Positions 177 to 10,442 of a stretch of 64,000 nucleotides of DNA are shown here, piece after piece. How positions within the stretch are numbered: position 1 is the first letter of the stretch; every line of letters starts with the position of its first letter. Source of the DNA: Candidatus Zhuqueibacterota bacterium. Lineage in GTDB: Bacteria > Zhuqueibacterota > Zhuqueibacteria > Thermofontimicrobiales > Thiofontviventaceae. Made by a program: the position numbers and the translations under genes. The notes beneath the pieces were generated by a model. It searched no databases, was not told the origin of the DNA, and saw only the letters and a list, made by a program, of their open reading frames with translations. Where the stretch lies: positions 1 to 64,000 of the forward strand of contig JAFGOE010000116.1 of the NCBI GenBank assembly GCA_016926625.1. The letters run 5' to 3'.

Positions 177-1253
177 ATGATACAGCATCCACAATCAAGA
201 CCATCTACCCTTCGCCTGATCGATGGGACCTCGTTTGAAGGGATATCATTTGGGACCTATAAAAGCGTGGTTGGAGAAGTCGTTTTCAACACAGGCATGG
301 TGGGTTATCCGGAAACGATGACCGATCCTTCATATAGGGGTCAAATATTGGTCATGACATATCCGCTCATCGGCAATTACGGCATCCCGGGTGACGAACG
401 CCTGCACGGTTTACTGGAATATTTTGAATCGGACCATATCCATGTTCAGGGTCTAATCATCGGAAGTTATTCCCCACACTATTCTCATTGGAGCGCTGTT
501 CGGTCATTATCTGAATGGATGAGCGACCATGATATTCCGGGTATCTACGGAGTCGATACGCGCCTTATCACTCAAAAACTGCGTGAACATGGTACGATGC
601 TCGGCGTCATGATCGCCGATGAAGAATTAGATTTTAAGGATCCCAATACATCAAATTTAGTGCAAGAAGTCAGTGTTACCGATACCATCGAATATAACGC
701 AGGCAGCAAGAAAATAATATTGATCGACTGCGGTGTTAAGAACAACATCATCAGGGCTTTCGTAAAACGTAATATCACCGTGATTAGAGTCCCATGGGAT
801 TATCCTGTTCAGCAGGAGAAAGTCGATGGAATCGTCATATCGAACGGACCTGGAGATCCCAAGATGTGTGAGGCGACCATTGATAACATCCGAGAGTGTC
901 TGCAACGTAACACACCGATACTCGGTATTTGCTTAGGCTCCCAGATCCTGGCGCTCGCAGCCGGCGCGGATACCTATAAACTGAAATACGGACATCGCAG
1001 CCAGAATCAGCCGTGTATTGAAACCGGCTCCAGACGGTGTTTTATCACCACCCAGAACCACGGGTATGCGGTCTATTCAGAGACGCTGCCTGTGGATTGG
1101 CGTGAATGGTTTTTCAACAACAACGACGAAACGAATGAGGGTATCATCCACATATCCAAACCATTCTTTGGAACCCAATTTCATCCGGAGGCATCACCTG
1201 GTCCTGATGATACCGAATTGATTTTCGACATGTTCGTGAGAGCAATTCAATGA
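177..1253 (+). CDS. carA: Carbamoyl-phosphate synthase small subunit
   Basis: Glutamine-hydrolysing subunit of carbamoyl-phosphate synthase. It releases ammonia from glutamine for the large subunit, feeding pyrimidine and arginine synthesis in the cytoplasm. The 358 residues show the CarA N-terminal domain (about 12-140) and a class I amidotransferase domain (about 180-355) with nucleophile Cys252 in GICLGSQ and the His336/Glu338 pair in FHPEASPGP. Family members usually read GICLGHQ, so Ser256 replaces a common His, a position outside the triad. The stop overlaps the carB start by four bases (ATGA), which implies translational coupling. No clear Shine-Dalgarno precedes the ATG; I kept this start because it gives the normal N-terminus. 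Confidence 0.96.
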   Translation: MIQHPQSRPSTLRLIDGTSFEGISFGTYKSVVGEVVFNTGMVGYPETMTDPSYRGQILVMTYPLIGNYGIPGDERLHGLLEYFESDHIHVQGLIIGSYSPHYSHWSAVRSLSEWMSDHDIPGIYGVDTRLITQKLREHGTMLGVMIADEELDFKDPNTSNLVQEVSVTDTIEYNAGSKKIILIDCGVKNNIIRAFVKRNITVIRVPWDYPVQQEKVDGIVISNGPGDPKMCEATIDNIRECLQRNTPILGICLGSQILALAAGADTYKLKYGHRSQNQPCIETGSRRCFITTQNHGYAVYSETLPVDWREWFFNNNDETNEGIIHISKPFFGTQFHPEASPGPDDTELIFDMFVRAIQ

Positions 1254-4200
1254 AAAAACGTGTAACGAAAGTGCTTATTATCGGGTCCGGTGCCATTAAA
1301 ATTGGTCAAGCCGGCGAGTTTGATTACTCCGGCAGCCAGGCCATCAAAGCACTGCGCGAAGAAGGGATTAAGACTGTCTTAATAAATCCCAATATTGCGA
1401 CGATACAGACATCAGAACATCTGGCGGATAAAGTCTACTTTCTTCCTATCACCCCCTATTTTGTTGAACGAGTCATTGAAAAAGAACGTCCTGACGGCAT
1501 CTTGCTCAGCTTCGGCGGACAGACGGCGCTTAACGTCGGTGTTCAATTGGAAACAGACAAGGTCTTTGATCGATACGCGCTCAGCGTGTTGGGTACACCC
1601 ATCGAATCCATACTGAACACGGAGGACAGGGATCTCTTCATACAGAAACTGAGGCAAATAGGACTCAAAACCCCGATTAGCAAGGCTGCCGTAAACACCA
1701 GCGAAGCGCTGCTCATCGCCCGAGAAATAGGATATCCGGTCATGCTGCGTATCGCCTACGCACTCGGTGGACTGGGTTCAGGCATCGCCAATGATGATAA
1801 AGAGCTGAAAGCACTGGCTGATAAAGCTTTTTCCTATACGAACCAGATATTGGTTGAGGAATATTTAGGCGGCTGGAAGGAGCTGGAGTATGAAGTGGTT
1901 CGCGATAGGAGCAACAACTGTATCGTGGTGTGTTCGATGGAAAATTTCGATCCCATGGGAATACACACCGGTGAAAGTATTGTCGTCGCTCCGGTTCAAA
2001 CCTTATCCGCGCGGGAAAATTTTAAACTAAGGTCAATTTCCATCACTGCCATTCGGCATCTCGGTATCATCGGCGAATGCAATATTCAATTCGCGCTCGA
2101 TCCGTATTCGGATGACTACCGTATCATCGAGGTCAATGCGCGCCTCAGTCGAAGTTCTGCGTTGGCATCGAAAGCGACCGGCTATCCATTGGCCTTCATC
2201 GCCGCTAAGCTAGCCATCGGGTACACACTGACTGAATTAAAAAATAACGTCACCAAAGAGACGTCTGCCTGCTTTGAACCAGCGCTCGATTACATTGTCC
2301 TGAAATATCCTCGCTGGGATCTGCAAAAATTCCGAAAAGTGAGCATGAAGATCGGGTCTGAGATGAAATCTGTCGGTGAAGTGATGGCCATCGGTCGCAG
2401 TTTTGAAGAAGTGCTGCAAAAAGCCATTCGAATGTTGGATATCGGAGCCAGAGGTGTGGTCTGTAACGATTTTATTTTCAGCAACATCGAAGAGGAGCTG
2501 AGCCATCCGAGCGACAAACGCGTTTTCGCCATTGCCGAAGCATTCAAGACAGGTTATACGATCGAAAGAATTCATGAGCTATCCAAAATCGATAAATGGT
2601 TCCTCTACAAGATCCGAAATATAGTCGATAAAGAAATTCAAATCAAGTCGCACGAGCTCGATAGCATCGATAAAGCGACGCTTAAGGAAGTGAAACAGCT
2701 GGGGTTTTCGGACGAGCAGATCGCTCTCATGACCAATGAATCAGCGATCAGCGTAAGATCGTTTCGGATAAAGCAGGGTATAGTCCCCTGCGTGAAGCAG
2801 ATCGATACGCTGGCTGCCGAGTATCCTGCCAGAACGAATTATCTCTATCTGACTTACCACGGCGATGGAGATGATATCGAATTTACAAATAAACAGCAGG
2901 TCGCCGTGTTGGGGAGCGGACCCTATCGGATCGGATCGTCGGTCGAGTTCGACTGGTGTTGTGTGAACGCCGTGATGACGCTTAGAAAAATGAATTACGA
3001 AGCGATCATGATCAACTACAATCCGGAGACCGTAAGCACGGATTACGATATCTGCGATAAACTATATTTTGAAGAATTGACCTTCGAACGGGTGATGGAT
3101 ATCTACGACAAAGAACATCCACTCGGCTTTATCGTCAGCATGGGGGGACAAATTCCTAACGGACTCGCCTTGCTGCTCCACAAATCCGGAGTACCCATAT
3201 TAGGGACTTCACCCGTGGATATCGATCGGGCGGAGGACAGGCATAAATTTTCACAGCTCCTGGATGAGCTCGATATCGATCAGCCCGCATGGAGCGAACT
3301 ATCGAGCATCGAGGAGGCTGAGAAATTTGCCGTGAAGGTCGGTTTCCCTGTGCTGATCAGGCCCAGTTACGTTTTAAGCGGCGCGGCGATGAGTGTGGCA
3401 CTGAGTACGACAGAGCTCCGGGAATATCTTAAGAAGGCTTCTGAGATCAGCAAGGACTATCCCGTCGTCATCAGCAAATTCATCACCAACGCCAAAGAGA
3501 TCGAGATCGATGCTGTGGCCGATAAGGGGGAACTGTTTTGCTATGCTATCTCGGAACACGTGGAAAATGCCGGTGTTCATTCCGGTGACGCCACGCTTGT
3601 TCTGCCGCCGCAACGTACCTATCTCGAAACCATGCGTCGTGTTAAAGTCATCGCCAGAAAGATTGCCCGGTCGTTGAATATTACCGGCCCTTTTAACATT
3701 CAATTTATCGCCAAGAACAATGAAGTCAAGGTCATCGAATGCAATCTAAGAGTCTCACGCAGCGTCCCCTTTGCATCGAAGGTATTCAAACATAATTTTA
3801 TCGATATTGCGACACGATTGATCATGGGACAGGCTGTCCCCCGGATCGATCACTCGTCGTTCGATCTCGATTACGTGGGGATCAAGGCACCGCAATTTTC
3901 GTTTACCCGCTTGAAGGGATCTGATCCGGTGCTCAACGTGGAAATGACTTCCACCGGGGAGGTTGCCTGCCTGGGCGATAATTTTAATGAAGCTTTTTTG
4001 AAAAGCCTTATGGCCGTGGGATTTAGATTACCCGAAAAGTCGATACTGTTATCGACAGGGCCCATTGAGAGCAAGGTGGAATTACTCGATAGCATCCGAA
4101 AGTTGAAGGAAATGAAATTCGATCTTTACGCCACGGCTGGTACGGCCCGGTTCCTCGCCGACCATGGGGTCGAGGCGACCATCTTACACTGGCCCCTGGA

Positions 4201-4438
4201 CGCTCAGGAGCCCAATACCATAACCTATATTGCAGAAAAAAAGATAGACCTGGTTATCAACATCCCGAAGAATATCGAAAAGGAGGAGCTAGATAACGAC
4301 TATCTGATCCGCCGCAAGGCCGTCGATTACGATATCCCACTGATCACCAATCTCCAAATCGCTAAACGATTCATCGAAACGTTGTCGTCCACACTATTGA
4401 GCGACCTGAAGGTCAAGGCGTGGGATGAATATGAGTAG
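1250..4438 (+). CDS. carB: Carbamoyl-phosphate synthase large subunit
   Basis: Synthetase subunit that makes carbamoyl phosphate from bicarbonate, ammonia and two ATP. At 1062 residues it is close to the usual length of about 1070. Two ATP-grasp halves are visible: the first starts with KVLIIGSGAIKIGQAGEFDY and carries GGLGSGIA, and the second starts near residue 550 (VAVLGSGPYRIGSSVEFDW). An oligomerisation segment lies between them. A C-terminal MGS-like regulatory domain (LYATAGTARFLADHGV) follows from about residue 930. It overlaps carA by four bases and the two form an operon. The open frames on the opposite strand inside it are shadows. Confidence 0.97.
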   Translation: MKKRVTKVLIIGSGAIKIGQAGEFDYSGSQAIKALREEGIKTVLINPNIATIQTSEHLADKVYFLPITPYFVERVIEKERPDGILLSFGGQTALNVGVQLETDKVFDRYALSVLGTPIESILNTEDRDLFIQKLRQIGLKTPISKAAVNTSEALLIAREIGYPVMLRIAYALGGLGSGIANDDKELKALADKAFSYTNQILVEEYLGGWKELEYEVVRDRSNNCIVVCSMENFDPMGIHTGESIVVAPVQTLSARENFKLRSISITAIRHLGIIGECNIQFALDPYSDDYRIIEVNARLSRSSALASKATGYPLAFIAAKLAIGYTLTELKNNVTKETSACFEPALDYIVLKYPRWDLQKFRKVSMKIGSEMKSVGEVMAIGRSFEEVLQKAIRMLDIGARGVVCNDFIFSNIEEELSHPSDKRVFAIAEAFKTGYTIERIHELSKIDKWFLYKIRNIVDKEIQIKSHELDSIDKATLKEVKQLGFSDEQIALMTNESAISVRSFRIKQGIVPCVKQIDTLAAEYPARTNYLYLTYHGDGDDIEFTNKQQVAVLGSGPYRIGSSVEFDWCCVNAVMTLRKMNYEAIMINYNPETVSTDYDICDKLYFEELTFERVMDIYDKEHPLGFIVSMGGQIPNGLALLLHKSGVPILGTSPVDIDRAEDRHKFSQLLDELDIDQPAWSELSSIEEAEKFAVKVGFPVLIRPSYVLSGAAMSVALSTTELREYLKKASEISKDYPVVISKFITNAKEIEIDAVADKGELFCYAISEHVENAGVHSGDATLVLPPQRTYLETMRRVKVIARKIARSLNITGPFNIQFIAKNNEVKVIECNLRVSRSVPFASKVFKHNFIDIATRLIMGQAVPRIDHSSFDLDYVGIKAPQFSFTRLKGSDPVLNVEMTSTGEVACLGDNFNEAFLKSLMAVGFRLPEKSILLSTGPIESKVELLDSIRKLKEMKFDLYATAGTARFLADHGVEATILHWPLDAQEPNTITYIAEKKIDLVINIPKNIEKEELDNDYLIRRKAVDYDIPLITNLQIAKRFIETLSSTLLSDLKVKAWDEYE

Positions 4439-4452
4439 GACGACGTAGAATA

Positions 4453-4721
4453 GGGGATGTCGGGCGAGTACACACCTGGCAGCGCTTTTGCACTATAGTG
4501 GCAAGGGACGATATCGTTGTTGGGCAAAGCCACTGATGTGCCAGTCCCTCAAGTCAGGGCAAGATCCCGACATCCCCCTGAATCCCCCTTCAGAAGGGGG
4601 ACTTGTGGCGGAACACATGCGTCCGCCCATGCCACGCCGTGGTGGCAGACGATGGTGTTGCGTGCAGATGGCGCATGCAGCAGTTTCCCCCTTGTGAAGG
4701 GGGAACAAGGGGGATGTAGGG
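4453..4721. repeat. Palindromic intergenic repeat cluster with G/C runs
   Basis: The 330-base gap after carB has no credible gene. It holds three copies of a 12-base word: ggggatgtcggg at 4453-4464, its exact reverse complement at 4566-4577, and ggggatgtaggg at 4710-4721. Two short hairpins sit inside, CCCCCTTCAGAAGGGGG (4584-4600) and CCCCCTTGTGAAGGGGG (4687-4703), and the hairpin-bearing segments are inverted relative to each other. The layout resembles REP/BIME-like or MITE-like intergenic repeats. Short open frames across it on both strands reflect the palindromes. It may also act as a transcription end for the convergent carB and aldo/keto reductase genes. Confidence 0.75.
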
Positions 4722-4768: not shown

Positions 4769-5731
4769 TCAGTCCACAAACTTCTTCAGCACATCTTCAG
4801 GGATGGGCCCCAGGTCCGAACTGGCCGTATTCTCATGAACCTGTTTCGATGTCTTGGCGCCCGGTATGGCGGTATGGCATGCAGGATGTGATATACAAAA
4901 TCTCAGGCTCACCTGAGCCAAGCTCTGGTCAGGATAGTGCTCGAAGAATGGCTTATAGTTCTCCAGCTTCTGCAAATAAGTCCTGAGTTTCTCCGGGGAC
5001 AAATTCATCTTTCGATGGTCATCTTCTCCGAACGTTGTCGCTGAATTAAATTTACCCGTCAAAAGGCCGAAGAGGAGCGGGATGCGAACGATCACGCCGA
5101 TCCCGTATTGGATGGCTTTGGGAAATAGATTCTCCTCCGCCTCTCGTTCCAATAAATTGTAACGGACCTGGATACTATCCAGAATATCATGATGCAAGTC
5201 GAGCAGATGGGCCTGTTCATTTTCCTTGAACGACTGAATGCTGAGACCCGCGTGTTTAATCTTCCCATCTCTCTTGAGTTGCTCCAGCGCCAGCCAGGGT
5301 TCATCCTGTTCCAATTTTTCGAGATTGGGACTGTGCAATTGAAGAATATCCAGAGCTTCCACACCGAGACGCTTGATGCTGTTTTCGGCGGCAAATATTA
5401 AATACTCTTTGGTATAGGTTTGACGTATCGGGCCATAGCCCTTATCATCGTCGGTTGTCGCATTATAGAAATCATTGCCCGCCTTGGTGGCTATAATGAT
5501 ATTCCCTTTCCCCCGTTTTTTAATAACCTGTGAGATCAAGTCCTCAGAATGACCGAATCCATACACATCGGCGGTGTCGATCAATGTAACACCGCGATCG
5601 ATCGCCTCATTCAGCGCATTGATAGAAACCTCATCGTCGGTCTTGCCCCAGTTCATCCCTCCGATCGCCCATGCTCCGAAGCCCATGGTAGACACCATGG
5701 GTCCACGTTTACCCAGTCGTTGATACTGCAT
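4769..5731 (-). CDS. Aldo/keto reductase family oxidoreductase
   Basis: NAD(P)H-dependent reductase of carbonyl substrates; the substrate cannot be told from sequence. The 320 residues form one AKR barrel with the catalytic tetrad visible: Asp52 and Tyr57 (DTADVYGFG), Lys83 (ATKAG) and His133 (LQLHSP). The C-terminal part ends the fold with TAIPGAKTSKQV, the usual cofactor-phosphate region. I chose the ATG at 5731 over the GTG two codons upstream because AAAGGA sits seven bases before it. A sigma-70-like promoter (5764-5792) lies directly upstream, so it is probably its own transcript. Confidence 0.92.
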   Translation of the reverse strand: MQYQRLGKRGPMVSTMGFGAWAIGGMNWGKTDDEVSINALNEAIDRGVTLIDTADVYGFGHSEDLISQVIKKRGKGNIIIATKAGNDFYNATTDDDKGYGPIRQTYTKEYLIFAAENSIKRLGVEALDILQLHSPNLEKLEQDEPWLALEQLKRDGKIKHAGLSIQSFKENEQAHLLDLHHDILDSIQVRYNLLEREAEENLFPKAIQYGIGVIVRIPLLFGLLTGKFNSATTFGEDDHRKMNLSPEKLRTYLQKLENYKPFFEHYPDQSLAQVSLRFCISHPACHTAIPGAKTSKQVHENTASSDLGPIPEDVLKKFVD

Positions 5732-5763
5732 TCTCACGTCCTTTCATTCGTTTCAAAATGATT

Positions 5764-5792
5764 AGTTTATTCGTTCTGATTGAGAAGGTCAA
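5764..5792 (-). promoter_or_regulatory. Sigma-70-like promoter for the aldo/keto reductase
   Basis: On the minus strand TTGACC (5792-5787) and TAAACT (5769-5764) are separated by 17 bases, about 33 bases upstream of the aldo/keto reductase start. The match is good but not confirmed. The rest of 5793-6027 is A/T-rich and shows no further gene. Confidence 0.5.
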
Positions 5793-6027
5793 TAACTGAT
5801 ACCTGATTCTTTTAAAGAAAGGCATAAAAATTTTATAGAATAGTATTTGACCAATTTAAAGTTTACATAGAAAACAACTTAAATAAATATCTTCAGATTA
5901 TCTATGCTTTCCCCTGACCGTCCATATTGTATTCTTTAAATACGCATATTCATCAGCGATAGAAATAAATTAGATAGCTTACAGACGGTGTTTAGTTCAT
6001 TACATTATAAAATTTCATGATGCAAGA

Positions 6028-6201
6028 TTATTTCGGCTTCTGTACATTCCTTTTCGTTCTTACCGCAGCGGATACTACCACTGCAAGATGCGCATGAAAG
6101 AGTGAACATTTATCAGGACTGGTGCAGTTACATTCACGCAGATCTTTTTCATCCTTCTTGTCCCCCTTTTTCTCTCCGGACCTGAACACTTTTTTTATCA
6201 T
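6028..6201 (-). CDS. Short Cys-containing peptide, candidate substrate of the overlapping radical SAM enzyme
   Basis: A 57-codon frame with an exact AGGAGG five bases before its ATG (AGGAGG at 6212-6207). Its first 53 bases overlap the 3' end of the radical SAM-SPASM gene in another frame, so the two should be co-transcribed and coupled. The N-terminal half is highly charged (SGEKKGDKKDEKD, leader-like). A central Cys/His segment follows (ECNCTSPDKCSLFHAHL: Cys24, Cys26, Cys32, His36, His38), then LAVVVSAAV and a basic tail. Such pairing is typical of RiPP precursors next to radical SAM maturases, but I recognise no named precursor family. Part of the coding region is forced by the overlapping gene, so composition is weaker evidence there; the 120 bases beyond the overlap are free and stay open. 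It could instead be a small metal-binding peptide. Confidence 0.6.
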   Translation of the reverse strand: MIKKVFRSGEKKGDKKDEKDLRECNCTSPDKCSLFHAHLAVVVSAAVRTKRNVQKPK

Positions 6202-7726
6202 ATGGACCTCCTGGTATATAGTTATTTAAAATTGAATTAAATGCCTGATTATTCTTTTCTAAAACGTAAGCATATGTCTGTATTGATTGTTTGTAATAAT
6301 CTCTGCGAACTATGCATTCATCCTCCCTTGAAGTGCTATCAAGAGGATGACCTGAAAAAGCATCCAAAATACATTTCGAACAAAATCGCTGAGCCCAGCA
6401 TTCTTTACAAAAACTGTAAAAATAATTATAATGATCGAGCAGTATTTCCAATATTTTTCCATAATTTAATCCTTTATACACATCTCCTATGTCCACTGAT
6501 TCATAGATCCGCTCACAAGGATAGAGCATCCCGTCGCTATCGATAAACATCCTTAATTTACCGGGGATACATTGCCCTGTCGAGAACCTTAATTCATCAA
6601 GATTTGTCGTATTTCGATCCGCCAGGAACGAATAATTATTCCAACATAAATTTAATATAAATTTATCGAGATAATCGCCGTTTATACATCTCTGAATAAA
6701 CACATCGTATAATTCTTTTAGTTGTTTATTGTAAGAATTGATTATCTCACCGGTTAAAAGAGAGCTCATTTTTGGAGAATTGTATAAATCCAGACTCTGG
6801 ACATCTAATGTTAAAAATGAAATTGGGGCTTGATTAAAAAATTGTCTTAATCCTTGCAGATCAAAGGGTGGAATCAAAACACAATTAATACCGATGTGAC
6901 TGACAAAATAATCGGGATAATGATGATAAATAAAATTTATATTATCCCAAATAGTATAAAATGATCCCCCTCCATTTCTAAACTTTCGATATTTATCATG
7001 TATTTTTTGTTGTCCGTTCAAACTGATCAGCAGATAAATTTCATTTTTCACTAAAAATTTAACAACATCAGGATCCAAAAGAGTACCATTCGTCGTCATG
7101 TTAAAAAGACATTTTTTCCCACGATCATGGATCCTATCTACAAAATAATTTATAAGATCAAAATTCATCAATGGTTCGCCACCATAGAAGGTCAGGGAAG
7201 GCTCTGCAGTTTCAGCCGTCATTTTTAAAAAATATTCCATTGCCAATTCGGCCACTTGCCTGGACATACTCTTTTTGCTTCTATTTCTGGTATGAGGATA
7301 ACTTTTAGAATATATGCAATAACTACAATTTAAATTACAATCTTCTGTTATCGCCAAGCAGGTATTTTGATTTTTACCCTGGATCTCCTTTTTTAATTGA
7401 TCTTCAGATTGCAGCCAATTCGATTTTGAAACCCGATGTATAAACATCCCGTGTTCTATTGACCGACGGATCTCACGCAATGCATAAATTACTCTCTCCT
7501 CACCATATATCCCCAAAATTCTATCAATATCTAATCGCAAATTTTCTCTTTCTTCCGGGAGCAAATTCCATGCGACCTCATCCAATTGAAAGAACTCATT
7601 GGTGCCCGCATCATAGACATAGAAATTGTTATCGGTTCTGAATTTACAAATTAGAGAAGCATCTACTAGATTGAGAATTTTTAACTCATTCACAAACGTG
7701 ATGGATGTATTTGATTCAGCTCGCAT
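6149..7726 (-). CDS. Radical SAM/SPASM peptide-maturase-like protein
   Basis: 525 residues from the chosen start. An N-terminal segment (about 30-95, YVYDAGTNEFFQLDEVAWNL) resembles the recognition-type segment before the radical SAM core of several peptide maturases. The core holds CNLNCSYC (Cys130, 134, 137) and YGGEP (181-185). A SPASM region follows with Cys386, 404, 440, 443, 449, 452 and 471, enough ligands for auxiliary iron-sulfur clusters. Spacing such as CIPGKLRMFIDSDGMLYPCE and CKECWAQRFCSKC recalls the Cys-rich-peptide maturase group (CcpM-like); this is family memory, not a search. An upstream ATG at 7822 is in frame but would add a Phe/Ile-rich stretch lying at the predicted transcription start, so I prefer 7726. 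Neither start has a clear Shine-Dalgarno. The gene overlaps the small peptide gene downstream. Confidence 0.85.
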   Translation of the reverse strand: MRAESNTSITFVNELKILNLVDASLICKFRTDNNFYVYDAGTNEFFQLDEVAWNLLPEERENLRLDIDRILGIYGEERVIYALREIRRSIEHGMFIHRVSKSNWLQSEDQLKKEIQGKNQNTCLAITEDCNLNCSYCIYSKSYPHTRNRSKKSMSRQVAELAMEYFLKMTAETAEPSLTFYGGEPLMNFDLINYFVDRIHDRGKKCLFNMTTNGTLLDPDVVKFLVKNEIYLLISLNGQQKIHDKYRKFRNGGGSFYTIWDNINFIYHHYPDYFVSHIGINCVLIPPFDLQGLRQFFNQAPISFLTLDVQSLDLYNSPKMSSLLTGEIINSYNKQLKELYDVFIQRCINGDYLDKFILNLCWNNYSFLADRNTTNLDELRFSTGQCIPGKLRMFIDSDGMLYPCERIYESVDIGDVYKGLNYGKILEILLDHYNYFYSFCKECWAQRFCSKCILDAFSGHPLDSTSREDECIVRRDYYKQSIQTYAYVLEKNNQAFNSILNNYIPGGPYDKKSVQVRREKGGQEG

Positions 7727-7826
7727 ATCATTTGGGGGAAAGATGAGAAAAAATAATTTATCGATAAACAGCCTAATTGATATATCAATCTTAATATAAA
7801 ATAGTGGAAGGAAAAACATCATTTAT

Positions 7827-7856
7827 AATATAATTATGGTATACACAGAAAGTCAA
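7827..7856 (-). promoter_or_regulatory. Sigma-70-like promoter for the radical SAM/peptide pair
   Basis: Minus strand TTGACT (7856-7851), 18-base spacer, TATATT (7832-7827). The start of transcription would fall near 7820. That argues for a leader of about 90 bases before the ATG at 7726 and against use of the ATG at 7822. Confidence 0.5.
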
Positions 7857-7993
7857 CAGAAATTTTGTGAATAAACGCAATGAGCAATAATTAAACCAGC
7901 ATAATAAATAGATTATTCATTTTTATGATGGACTTAAAGAAAATTTGATTGATTTTACATATAATGATGATGACATCACCCACGGAATAAACA

Positions 7994-8022
7994 AACCCAA
8001 CGACCTTTGCGATCGTTGGGTT
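7994..8022 (-). terminator. Hairpin terminator downstream of the sigma/DUF4252 operon
   Basis: A perfect 10-bp stem (AACCCAACGA 7994-8003 and TCGTTGGGTT 8013-8022) with a 9-base loop. On the minus strand it is followed by TGTTTATT, a moderate T-rich tail. It lies about 180 bases past the last gene of the minus-strand operon. The remaining bases of the 7857-8199 gap are A/T-rich and show no gene. Confidence 0.6.
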
Positions 8023-8199
8023 GCACATTTGTTTCATATAGTCAGGTAGTTAATTAATTTTGGATTTTGAAGCCTATTCTAATTTACTCGAACGACGATA
8101 TTGTGTCCACTGACCAATAAATAAGCGACTATGAACTCCTTGAAAACCATTAAAAGTAGATACCATGCAAGAATCTGTCATTCGACTTAGTGTATGGCC

Positions 8200-8739
8200 C
8201 TAACTGATCCAATCCTCATGGTTCAACGACTTCTCCCTCAATGCCTCTTCGATCATATGCTCGAGATTACCCACGACTTCAACGATAACGACCTCCTCAT
8301 CGTGAAGGGACAGGACATACAAACTTATCTTTTCTTTTCCGAGCTCTTTAAACAGCACCACCACGTTCTCATCTCTCTCTTTGACGCGGACAAACACCTC
8401 CCACCCTGATTTTTTCAGTCTTTCGATGACGGCTGTTGGAACTTTGAGATCGATGTCCTTATCCTCTTCTGGTGAGAACTCATAAACACCCACCTGCACC
8501 TTACTGACATTCCTTAACTGCCGCTTCGCCATTTCGTCAGCATCGGTCAAGCTAACGACGCCACGGATAGTGGTTAAGCACAACGGACCGAAGCTGAATT
8601 TGAACCTGGTCTTAAGATGAGCGGGTTGGACCTGTTGCTTAATAGAACGCTCGATGTGATTGAACTCTTTATTGGTGCAACCCATTGCAATGAGACCGAG
8701 GAAAGAGAAGAGCAATAGCAATTTACACATGTTTTTCAT
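8200..8739 (-). CDS. DUF4252-like lipoprotein
   Basis: A 179-residue secreted protein with a signal peptide ending in GLIAMGC, a loose lipobox, followed by a soluble domain. The body resembles its upstream neighbour: both have a conserved run of the type VRVKE-D-E-V-VLFKE and a C-terminal segment ending in a NLE/GKID-type turn, as in the DUF4252 family of the FCB group, whose function is unknown. The start at 8739 is preferred over the ATG two codons earlier because GAGGAGGG lies six bases before it. It is last in the operon sigma, anti-sigma, DUF4252, DUF4252, so it is probably made with them. Confidence 0.75.
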   Translation of the reverse strand: MKNMCKLLLLFSFLGLIAMGCTNKEFNHIERSIKQQVQPAHLKTRFKFSFGPLCLTTIRGVVSLTDADEMAKRQLRNVSKVQVGVYEFSPEEDKDIDLKVPTAVIERLKKSGWEVFVRVKERDENVVVLFKELGKEKISLYVLSLHDEEVVIVEVVGNLEHMIEEALREKSLNHEDWIS

Positions 8740-8754
8740 GATCATCCCTCCTCT

Positions 8755-9336
8755 CTATTTTTTCTCTGTATTCGTATCGATTTTCACATCATTGAGTTCC
8801 GGGATATTTAATTTATCGCCCAATTTCCCCAGCTGCTCCGGATCTATTTTCCCGGCAATATTAATGAACACGGCTTCATGATCTCCGTTATCCAGTACCA
8901 TCAGGGTTAATCCCTGCATTTCATCGGCCTTGTCGAATAACGTGAATATCTCCACTCGCTCATCCTGCTCCTTAACCCTGACCATGGCTTCCCAGTTTTT
9001 ACTCGTTAATTTTTTTGATACATCCTTCATCAACGTTAATACCTTATTTTCATCCTTTCCTTCGAGCGAAAACACATTCACCTTGATCACGACGAGGTTA
9101 TCCAACAATTTGGACAAATCCGGATCCTCCTTCTGTGTCGCTTTTGACACAAACTTAAGCAATGGTCCCCGAATAAATACTTCTACCGTTTCCTCAGCAT
9201 CCATGAATCCTTCTAAATTACCAAAATCGACATACCCCGGATGATTTTTATAGGCATCGTCTGCGCTCGATAAGGCCGGAAAGCACAGCATGATGACTAA
9301 TAGAAATGTTATATTATAAACTAAAGTCCTTTTCAT
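8755..9336 (-). CDS. DUF4252-family secreted protein
   Basis: A 193-residue protein with a Sec signal peptide (MKRTLVYNITFLLVIMLCF, cleavage probably after SSA) and a DUF4252-like domain. Members are typically encoded beside ECF sigma factors in Bacteroidota and relatives and have no known activity. The start at ATG 9336 follows GGAGG with a five-base spacer. The gene begins inside the end of the anti-sigma gene (23-base overlap), so translation is probably coupled. Its partner lipoprotein is 15 bases downstream. Confidence 0.8.
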   Translation of the reverse strand: MKRTLVYNITFLLVIMLCFPALSSADDAYKNHPGYVDFGNLEGFMDAEETVEVFIRGPLLKFVSKATQKEDPDLSKLLDNLVVIKVNVFSLEGKDENKVLTLMKDVSKKLTSKNWEAMVRVKEQDERVEIFTLFDKADEMQGLTLMVLDNGDHEAVFINIAGKIDPEQLGKLGDKLNIPELNDVKIDTNTEKK

Positions 9337-9901
9337 TTTGTCCTCCATTTAACATGGTTTTGATGGTTATATCGAGTGATTGCTCCAGGGGCTTCAACAG
9401 CTTACCCGCCGGCACTCTCTCTTTTAACAGATTTTCTGTTTTACTTGAATAGCGATGAATATAAGCCAGAGCAAGATGGATGTCCTGTTTTGCCTTCTCG
9501 ATTTCAAGTTCCGTATACATACCTTGTACGTTTTGTTCGTGATGATAAACGTTATACATCATTAATGAGAACAACGCAAAAGCAACAGCGATCGTCGCAT
9601 ATTTAAGTTTCCAGGAAGTGACCTTATACCTATTAGTCAGCCAGTCAAAAAACTCTGCGATACGTGTTGACGAATTTGCCGTTCTGTGTTCGATGCGTTC
9701 CAAAACATCCCTGGTGACTCGATCAGGACATTTTAGACTCGGAAGTCTGCTCACCTGATTTCTCATTATCAACTGAATATCAAATTCGCGTCGGCAAGCA
9801 TCACAATGTCCAAGATGAAGATCTATCTCCTCCTTCAATGCATCGGTGATGTCACCATCCAGATAATCGATCAATTTCTCGAGACACATTATACAATTCA
9901 T
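9314..9901 (-). CDS. Zinc-finger anti-sigma factor
   Basis: A 195-residue membrane anti-sigma factor. The N-terminus carries a zf-HC2-type zinc site (CIMCLEKLIDYLDGD and, at about 29-36, HLGHCDAC). One transmembrane helix follows near residues 100-120 (YATIAVAFALFSLMMYNVY), and the rest, about 75 residues, should lie outside the cytoplasmic membrane. It is expected to hold the adjacent ECF sigma factor inactive. Its start lies four bases after the sigma stop codon, and its own end overlaps the next gene. The signal sensed is unknown. Confidence 0.9.
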   Translation of the reverse strand: MNCIMCLEKLIDYLDGDITDALKEEIDLHLGHCDACRREFDIQLIMRNQVSRLPSLKCPDRVTRDVLERIEHRTANSSTRIAEFFDWLTNRYKVTSWKLKYATIAVAFALFSLMMYNVYHHEQNVQGMYTELEIEKAKQDIHLALAYIHRYSSKTENLLKERVPAGKLLKPLEQSLDITIKTMLNGGQNEKDFSL

Positions 9902-9905
9902 TCTA

Positions 9906-10442
9906 TCACTCCGTTTGATACGCTTTCTTCAAAAAATTGATACGCTGCGCTAACGTTCTCCTTCCTCTGTGCAGGTATACTTTGATCGTGTTCACAGGCA
10001 GAGATAGAGTCTCTGCGATCAATTCATAAGGACAATCCTGAATATCCCTCATAATAAGAATTGTCCGTATTTTCTCCGGTAACTTCGATATCTCACGAAG
10101 GATATTTTCCTGAAAATCTTCGTAAATAACATATTGTTCCGGAGTGGGAGATGAGTCCTGAACATTTTCTAACAAGTAACTACCGTAATCATCATCACAT
10201 TCGGCATCAAGCAAGGTTTCCTTTTTCTTCCGGTACGAATCGATACAAAGGTTTCTGGTGACGCGGCACAACCATCCATAGACAGCCTTCTTATCGACTC
10301 GATCCGCATGATTCCACAGTCGCAGGAACACTTCCTGCACGATGTCCTCAGAATCTTGTTTCGAACCGGTAAAATAATATGCTTGCGTATAGATTTGATT
10401 CTTGTATCTATTCATTATATTTTTAAATTCATCCGTTCTCAT
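9906..10442 (-). CDS. ECF-type RNA polymerase sigma factor
   Basis: A 178-residue sigma-70 family ECF factor with region 2 (about 10-75, including DSEDIVQEVFLRLWNHA and the Trp/Arg-rich -10 recognition helix) and region 4 (about 115-170, PYELIAETLSLPVNTIKVYL, a helix-turn-helix that reads the -35). It heads an operon with its anti-sigma factor and two secreted DUF4252 proteins. GAGGAG sits directly against the ATG, which is unusually tight. A TATAAT on the minus strand lies just upstream of that, so a very short leader is possible. The true start could also be at Met10. Confidence 0.9.
   Translation of the reverse strand: MRTDEFKNIMNRYKNQIYTQAYYFTGSKQDSEDIVQEVFLRLWNHADRVDKKAVYGWLCRVTRNLCIDSYRKKKETLLDAECDDDYGSYLLENVQDSSPTPEQYVIYEDFQENILREISKLPEKIRTILIMRDIQDCPYELIAETLSLPVNTIKVYLHRGRRTLAQRINFLKKAYQTE

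Follow-up and report, generated by a model that had tools for sequence, protein, structure and literature searches.

A putative minimal RiPP pair: a CcpM-like radical SAM/SPASM enzyme gene overlapping the gene of a short CxC peptide

A radical SAM/SPASM enzyme gene whose 3' end overlaps a 57-codon open reading frame (ORF) raises the question of whether the short frame encodes the substrate of the enzyme and, if so, which modification that substrate would receive. We addressed this question for one such locus, located in a 64 kb stretch of DNA (64,000 nucleotides, hereafter “the window”) from a Candidatus Zhuqueibacterota bacterium.

The enzyme ORF is open on the minus strand from 7822 to 6149 and encodes 525 aa if it is started at the ATG at 7726 (Table 1). 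The true start is uncertain: an ATG is also present at 7822, and a clear Shine-Dalgarno sequence is absent at 7726. A promoter-like sequence lies upstream of the gene; the regional count of such sites was not clearly higher than in shuffled sequences. The peptide ORF begins in the context ACC-AGGAGG-TCCAT-ATG, which agrees with the exact AGGAGG and five-base spacer reported in the first-pass annotation. That annotation also described the peptide gene as nested. It does overlap the 3' end of the enzyme gene, but “nested” is an overstatement because the overlap spans just 53 nt (17 codons), and approximately 70% of the gene, with all of its Cys and His codons, lies past the enzyme stop. The relatives' enzymes described below stop soon after the position of NNQAFNSILNNY in the window enzyme, and the final ~16 residues of the latter have no counterpart in them. 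Inside the overlap, the codon score of the peptide frame was 0.235 versus -0.189 for the last 20 codons of the enzyme. This is most simply explained by an enzyme frame that has extended into the gene of the peptide. No special role of the overlap is supported, as it covers the non-homologous enzyme tail only and the two genes are separate in all four relatives, where gene order differs among loci.

Table 1. Positions of features at the window locus and of the peptides at the four related loci (L030 to L033).
Feature	Position	Strand	Remarks
Radical SAM/SPASM peptide maturase	6149..7726	-	525 aa; TIGR04068 285 bits, PF04055 E 5.8e-15
RRE-like N-terminal segment, ~residues 25-94	7445..7654	-	predicted three strands then three helices
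Radical SAM motif CNLNCSYC (CxxxCxxC; C130, C134, C137)	7316..7339	-
SPASM cysteines C386, C404, C440, C443, C449, C452, C471	6314..6571	-	two putative auxiliary Fe-S clusters
Promoter-like TTGACT-18-TATATT upstream of enzyme	7827..7856	-	10/12 match
Shine-Dalgarno AGGAGG of peptide	6207..6212	-	5-base spacer
Putative precursor peptide, 57 aa, MIKKVFRSGEKKGDKKDEKDLRECNCTSPDKCSLFHAHLAVVVSAAVRTKRNVQKPK	6028..6201	-	basic leader, CxCx3D core
Enzyme/peptide overlap, 53 nt	6149..6201	-	enzyme non-homologous C-terminal tail / first 17 peptide codons
CNCTSPD (CxCx3D) motif, Cys24-Asp30	6112..6132	-
Cys24; Cys26; Cys32 of window peptide	6132-6130; 6126-6124; 6108-6106	-
Alternate-frame ORF, 34 aa, four Cys, MFTLSCASCSGSIRCGKNEKECTEAEIILHHEIL	6005..6109	-	overlaps peptide 3' half and runs beyond
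L030 peptide	3102-3245		78 nt upstream of enzyme gene
L031 peptide	10128-10292		61 nt downstream of enzyme gene
L032 peptide	6110-6268		~1.9 kb upstream of enzyme gene
L033 peptide	206-391		cluster's first gene, ahead of propeller and enzyme

The locus is flanked by an aldo/keto reductase gene on one side and a DUF4252/anti-sigma/ECF-sigma set on the other, and the reported lack of protease and transporter genes nearby was confirmed. The latter set (8200-10442, minus strand) comprises two DUF4252 proteins, an anti-sigma factor and an ECF sigma factor, and resembles the GFO_1088/GFO_1090 families in NCBIfam. Positions 5800-8000 form an AT-rich island that coincides with the enzyme gene and fits recent horizontal acquisition, since its GC content is ~34% versus 43-50% in the flanks.

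The enzyme carries both the CxxxCxxC motif and the seven SPASM cysteines expected of radical SAM/SPASM peptide maturases, and all ten of these residues are invariant in the five homologues. Its Pfam SPASM match (17.9 bits) lies just under the 21.5 cut-off. All of its best NCBIfam matches were RiPP maturases, including the lachnocin maturases, and none reached its own cut-off (CcpM, E = 7.8e-85; RumMC, 1e-63; TIGR04148, 1e-53; PapB, 4e-48). A structure model built from five sequences (low confidence overall, mean pLDDT 52) predicted strands at residues 26-30, 35-39 and 44-48, followed by helices at 50-55, 60-74 and 76-91 (local pLDDT ~61-81). CteB is a maturase carrying an RRE. It was the top solved relative by both profile search and fold search, is titled as a thioether-forming SCIFF maturase, and aligned with the enzyme profile (5wgg) starting at its own N-terminus. 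The low-confidence model and the CteB profile match suggest a beta3-alpha3, RRE-like topology for residues 26-91. The enzyme features named in the first-pass annotation (CxxxCxxC, seven late Cys and an N-terminal recognition-like segment) were therefore all found, and these data support its assignment as a SPASM protein of the peptide-maturase type whose N-terminus is RRE-like.

A search of 82 genomes of the phylum yielded four full-length enzyme relatives with 28-31% identity, which scored 274-342 bits against TIGR04068 (cut-off 500). With a joint profile that was built including these members, the five enzymes matched at E < 1e-200 and the next match was at 1e-43, which sets them apart as a clearly delimited family within the phylum. 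An enzyme scan of genome contigs gave one weak match (L024), and in viral contigs it gave just more distant SPASM proteins, none of the four inspected being beside a comparable peptide. A relative close enough to the window locus for a selection test was not found. Six-bladed beta-propeller-like proteins occur in the loci of all four relatives (they match DUF5128 or NHL, those of L031 and L032 weakly), and ABC exporters, in which a peptidase domain was not recognised, occur in two. These partners suggest that the product is an exported peptide. Neither partner is linked to the window locus, nor is any other export gene, and the propeller family PF17170 had no match in the genome that the window comes from (85% complete; the model is weak for these proteins).

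Two other loci were noted. At L003:1423-4054 (minus strand) a different SPASM maturase lies directly 3' of a 382-aa protein in which CxxC-like repeats (CDGYCEVCEDCEGC...) follow one another over a long stretch. The end of this protein resembles a secretion sorting tail, and such a large Cys-repeat protein is a possible maturase substrate. On the viral-collection contig L053, several consecutive ORFs at 5019-8236 (plus strand) are radical SAM-like, and 361-528 holds a small ORF rich in Cys.

To compare peptides among the five enzyme loci we considered small ORFs that are preceded by a Shine-Dalgarno sequence and encode CxC and three or more Cys. One such peptide (47-61 aa) was present within ~2 kb of the enzyme at each of the five loci, while the same definition returned a single ORF from background loci totalling 910 kb, a rate that is approximate because this background mixes phylum and viral-contig DNA. 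The peptides begin with M-I/F-K/E in all five cases, followed by K/N-V/I in four. As a family marker the N-terminal motif was rejected: its DNA pattern also hits unrelated proteins in their signal peptides, which makes the motif non-specific when used alone. CxC occurs in all five peptides and CxCx3D in four (CNCTSPD, CGCSEDD, CTCLSGD and CTCSHAD), CX3D being absent from the L032 peptide. Recurrence of CxCx3D was significant by permutation, both for the motif itself (p = 0.0015) and with any residue and offset allowed (p = 0.03); “CX3D/E somewhere” was not (p = 0.14), and only the CxCx3D register is significant.

Outside these motifs the window peptide resembles the others little. The relatives' peptides contain nothing that corresponds to its tail past Cys32, and a profile built from those four ranked it 17th of ~2100 ORFs (E = 11), so that its homology is unproven by sequence alone. 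In the other leave-one-out profiles the L030, L031 and L033 peptides were near the top and the L032 peptide was 19th of ~2100-2200. We therefore place the window peptide in the family by position and motif. It has no family match in NCBIfam or Pfam, and a search of the 82 genomes found no peptide homologues beyond the five (remaining matches E 0.002 or worse; three inspected were dissimilar). The proposed conservation of Cys24, Cys26, Cys32, His36 and His38 held in part: CxC is kept in all five peptides, but Cys32 and the two histidines do not recur, which removes the “3-Cys/2-His core” as a conserved element. Downstream of the L033 enzyme (4323-4535, plus strand) there is also a Cys-rich 70-aa peptide that begins like a signal peptide (MKKVFLTLFLIFTMIALMSQ...), a candidate second substrate or exported small protein.

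A short leader-plus-core precursor beside a maturase, recurring in related loci, is the arrangement by which RiPP systems are recognised, and it was found here. Because comparable peptides accompany all four enzyme homologues, the window peptide is very probably the substrate of its enzyme, as had been proposed.

We suggest that the two genes constitute a RiPP unit that is minimal and probably bicistronic. The enzyme would recognise the peptide by its basic N-terminus (MIKKVF...) through the N-terminal RRE-like domain and, with SAM and two auxiliary Fe-S clusters, would oxidise a core residue within CNCTSPD and join it to the sulphur of a cysteine, so that one or two thioether rings result. 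Expression of the two genes may be coupled by the overlap, which the chemistry itself would not need. We consider this reading probable as a whole: the peptide is very probably the substrate, leader recognition is a prediction, and formation of a Cys thioether is likely, although less certain than the substrate relation. The bond type and the place of the ring are a reasoned guess, Cys26 to Asp30 falling a little short of even: CX3D is the documented PapB cross-link motif for the Cys-Asp thioether (PMC9413430), and Cys26 to Asp30 is the most plausible position because PapB makes this thioether in CX3D.

One alternative is that the same pair carries out sactipeptide chemistry, in which sulphur would be joined to the alpha-carbon of another acceptor residue; this linkage is assigned to RumMC-type systems and assumed for CcpM/SacP23-like ones. 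TIGR04068 and RumMC outscore PapB for the enzyme, and the L032 peptide lacks CX3D. However, CxCx3D recurs in the other four peptides and the enzyme stays well below the curated cut-offs of both CcpM (500 bits) and RumMC (720 bits); we regard this alternative as possible, at perhaps one chance in four.

Another possibility, compatible with the other explanations, is that the peptide is real but shifted, its true core continuing in the alternate frame through an indel (biological or in the assembly) or ribosomal frameshifting, which would add four Cys and two CX3E motifs. This frame is open for 34 codons and lacks a Shine-Dalgarno sequence of its own. Just 5 of 157 open 30-codon wrong-frame stretches in window genes (~3%) had at least four Cys, and the frame-0 tail HLAVVVSAAVRTKRNVQKPK is without parallel. 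On the other hand, the joined reading matches the relatives no better than frame 0, a slippery site was not recognised by eye, and codon scores fail to separate the frames. The Cys-rich frame may reflect coincidence, an indel or frameshifting; a shifted core is rather unlikely, although it leaves the C-terminus of the peptide uncertain.

It could also be speculated that the 57-codon ORF arose by chance and that the enzyme acts on a substrate encoded elsewhere in the genome. The weak leave-one-out score is in line with this, as is the codon usage of the peptide, which at 0.056 per codon is intermediate between coding sequence (mean 0.17, SD 0.07) and wrong frames (mean -0.04, SD 0.07). Of 18 GGAGG-N4-10-ATG sites in the window, 10 begin ORFs that reach 57 codons or more, and the nine besides the peptide ORF look like ordinary genes for proteins. 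Against a chance origin stand the exact AGGAGG, the position of the gene, the presence at all five enzyme loci of ORFs that are otherwise rare, and the failure to find another homologue of the peptide in its own genome; we consider it very unlikely. Finally, C.C.....C...H.H could bind metal, but a small metal-binding or regulatory protein that is co-expressed with the enzyme and is not its substrate is highly improbable given that Cys32, His36 and His38 are not kept in the relatives' peptides, that the nearest enzyme families are peptide maturases and that an RRE-like domain is present.

With the minimal RiPP pair as the preferred reading, the five loci might, tentatively, represent an undescribed RiPP family thinly spread in one phylum. 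Its enzymes, SPASM proteins like CcpM, would introduce a Cys-Asp thioether of the PapB type into CxCx3D cores. The window would then hold the most stripped-down member of this family, just two genes that overlap in their reading frames and have no export genes linked to them. These results define five enzyme-precursor pairs whose precursors are recognised by no NCBIfam model; the CxCx3D motif predicts a specific cross-link, and the window unit is small enough for direct co-expression testing.

Among known systems, CcpM (TIGR04068) is the closest named maturase family and matches the window enzyme over nearly its full length, although at 285 bits against a cut-off of 500. CcpM systems likewise have a short Cys-containing precursor next to the enzyme, an example being SacP23 of Paenibacillus polymyxa, with a CLI_3235-class precursor (PMC10731318). 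TIGR04065, the model for that class, gave background-level matches only and none at the peptides, and the CcpM companions TIGR04066, TIGR04069, ABC transporter and subtilase are absent from the genes flanking the window locus. The PapB/PapA ranthipeptide system has a SPASM maturase as well, whose substrate is a peptide with a leader and with CX3D in its core (PMC9413430). The CX3D/E that characterises PapB substrates is present in the window peptide as CTSPD, and CX3D in four of the five peptides; however, PapA has six CX3D and the window peptide one, and the enzyme scores 164.5 bits against the 340-bit cut-off of PapB (NF047865). RumMC-type and Apre_1838-type sactipeptide loci (NF035951; L130 and L131) have a similar enzyme (E = 1e-63) and a directly adjacent precursor, but the window enzyme scores 215 bits against 720, and the plasmid locus L130, unlike the window, has ABC transporter genes on both sides. 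The SCIFF maturase CteB (PDB 5wgg, 5why) has the same RRE, radical SAM and SPASM architecture, whereas the window precursor has no SCIFF match and the enzyme reaches 125 bits of the 425 set for TIGR03974. The TIGR04148 maturases (GG_samocin_CFB) are similar at E = 1e-53, but the score is 183 bits against 300, and no GG-type leader was recognised by eye in the five peptides. The earlier view that the system is unlike any nameable family was thus too strong, as the enzyme falls among the CcpM, RumMC and PapB-type maturases, and the window pair looks like a pared-down variant of known SPASM-maturase RiPP systems rather than something categorically new.
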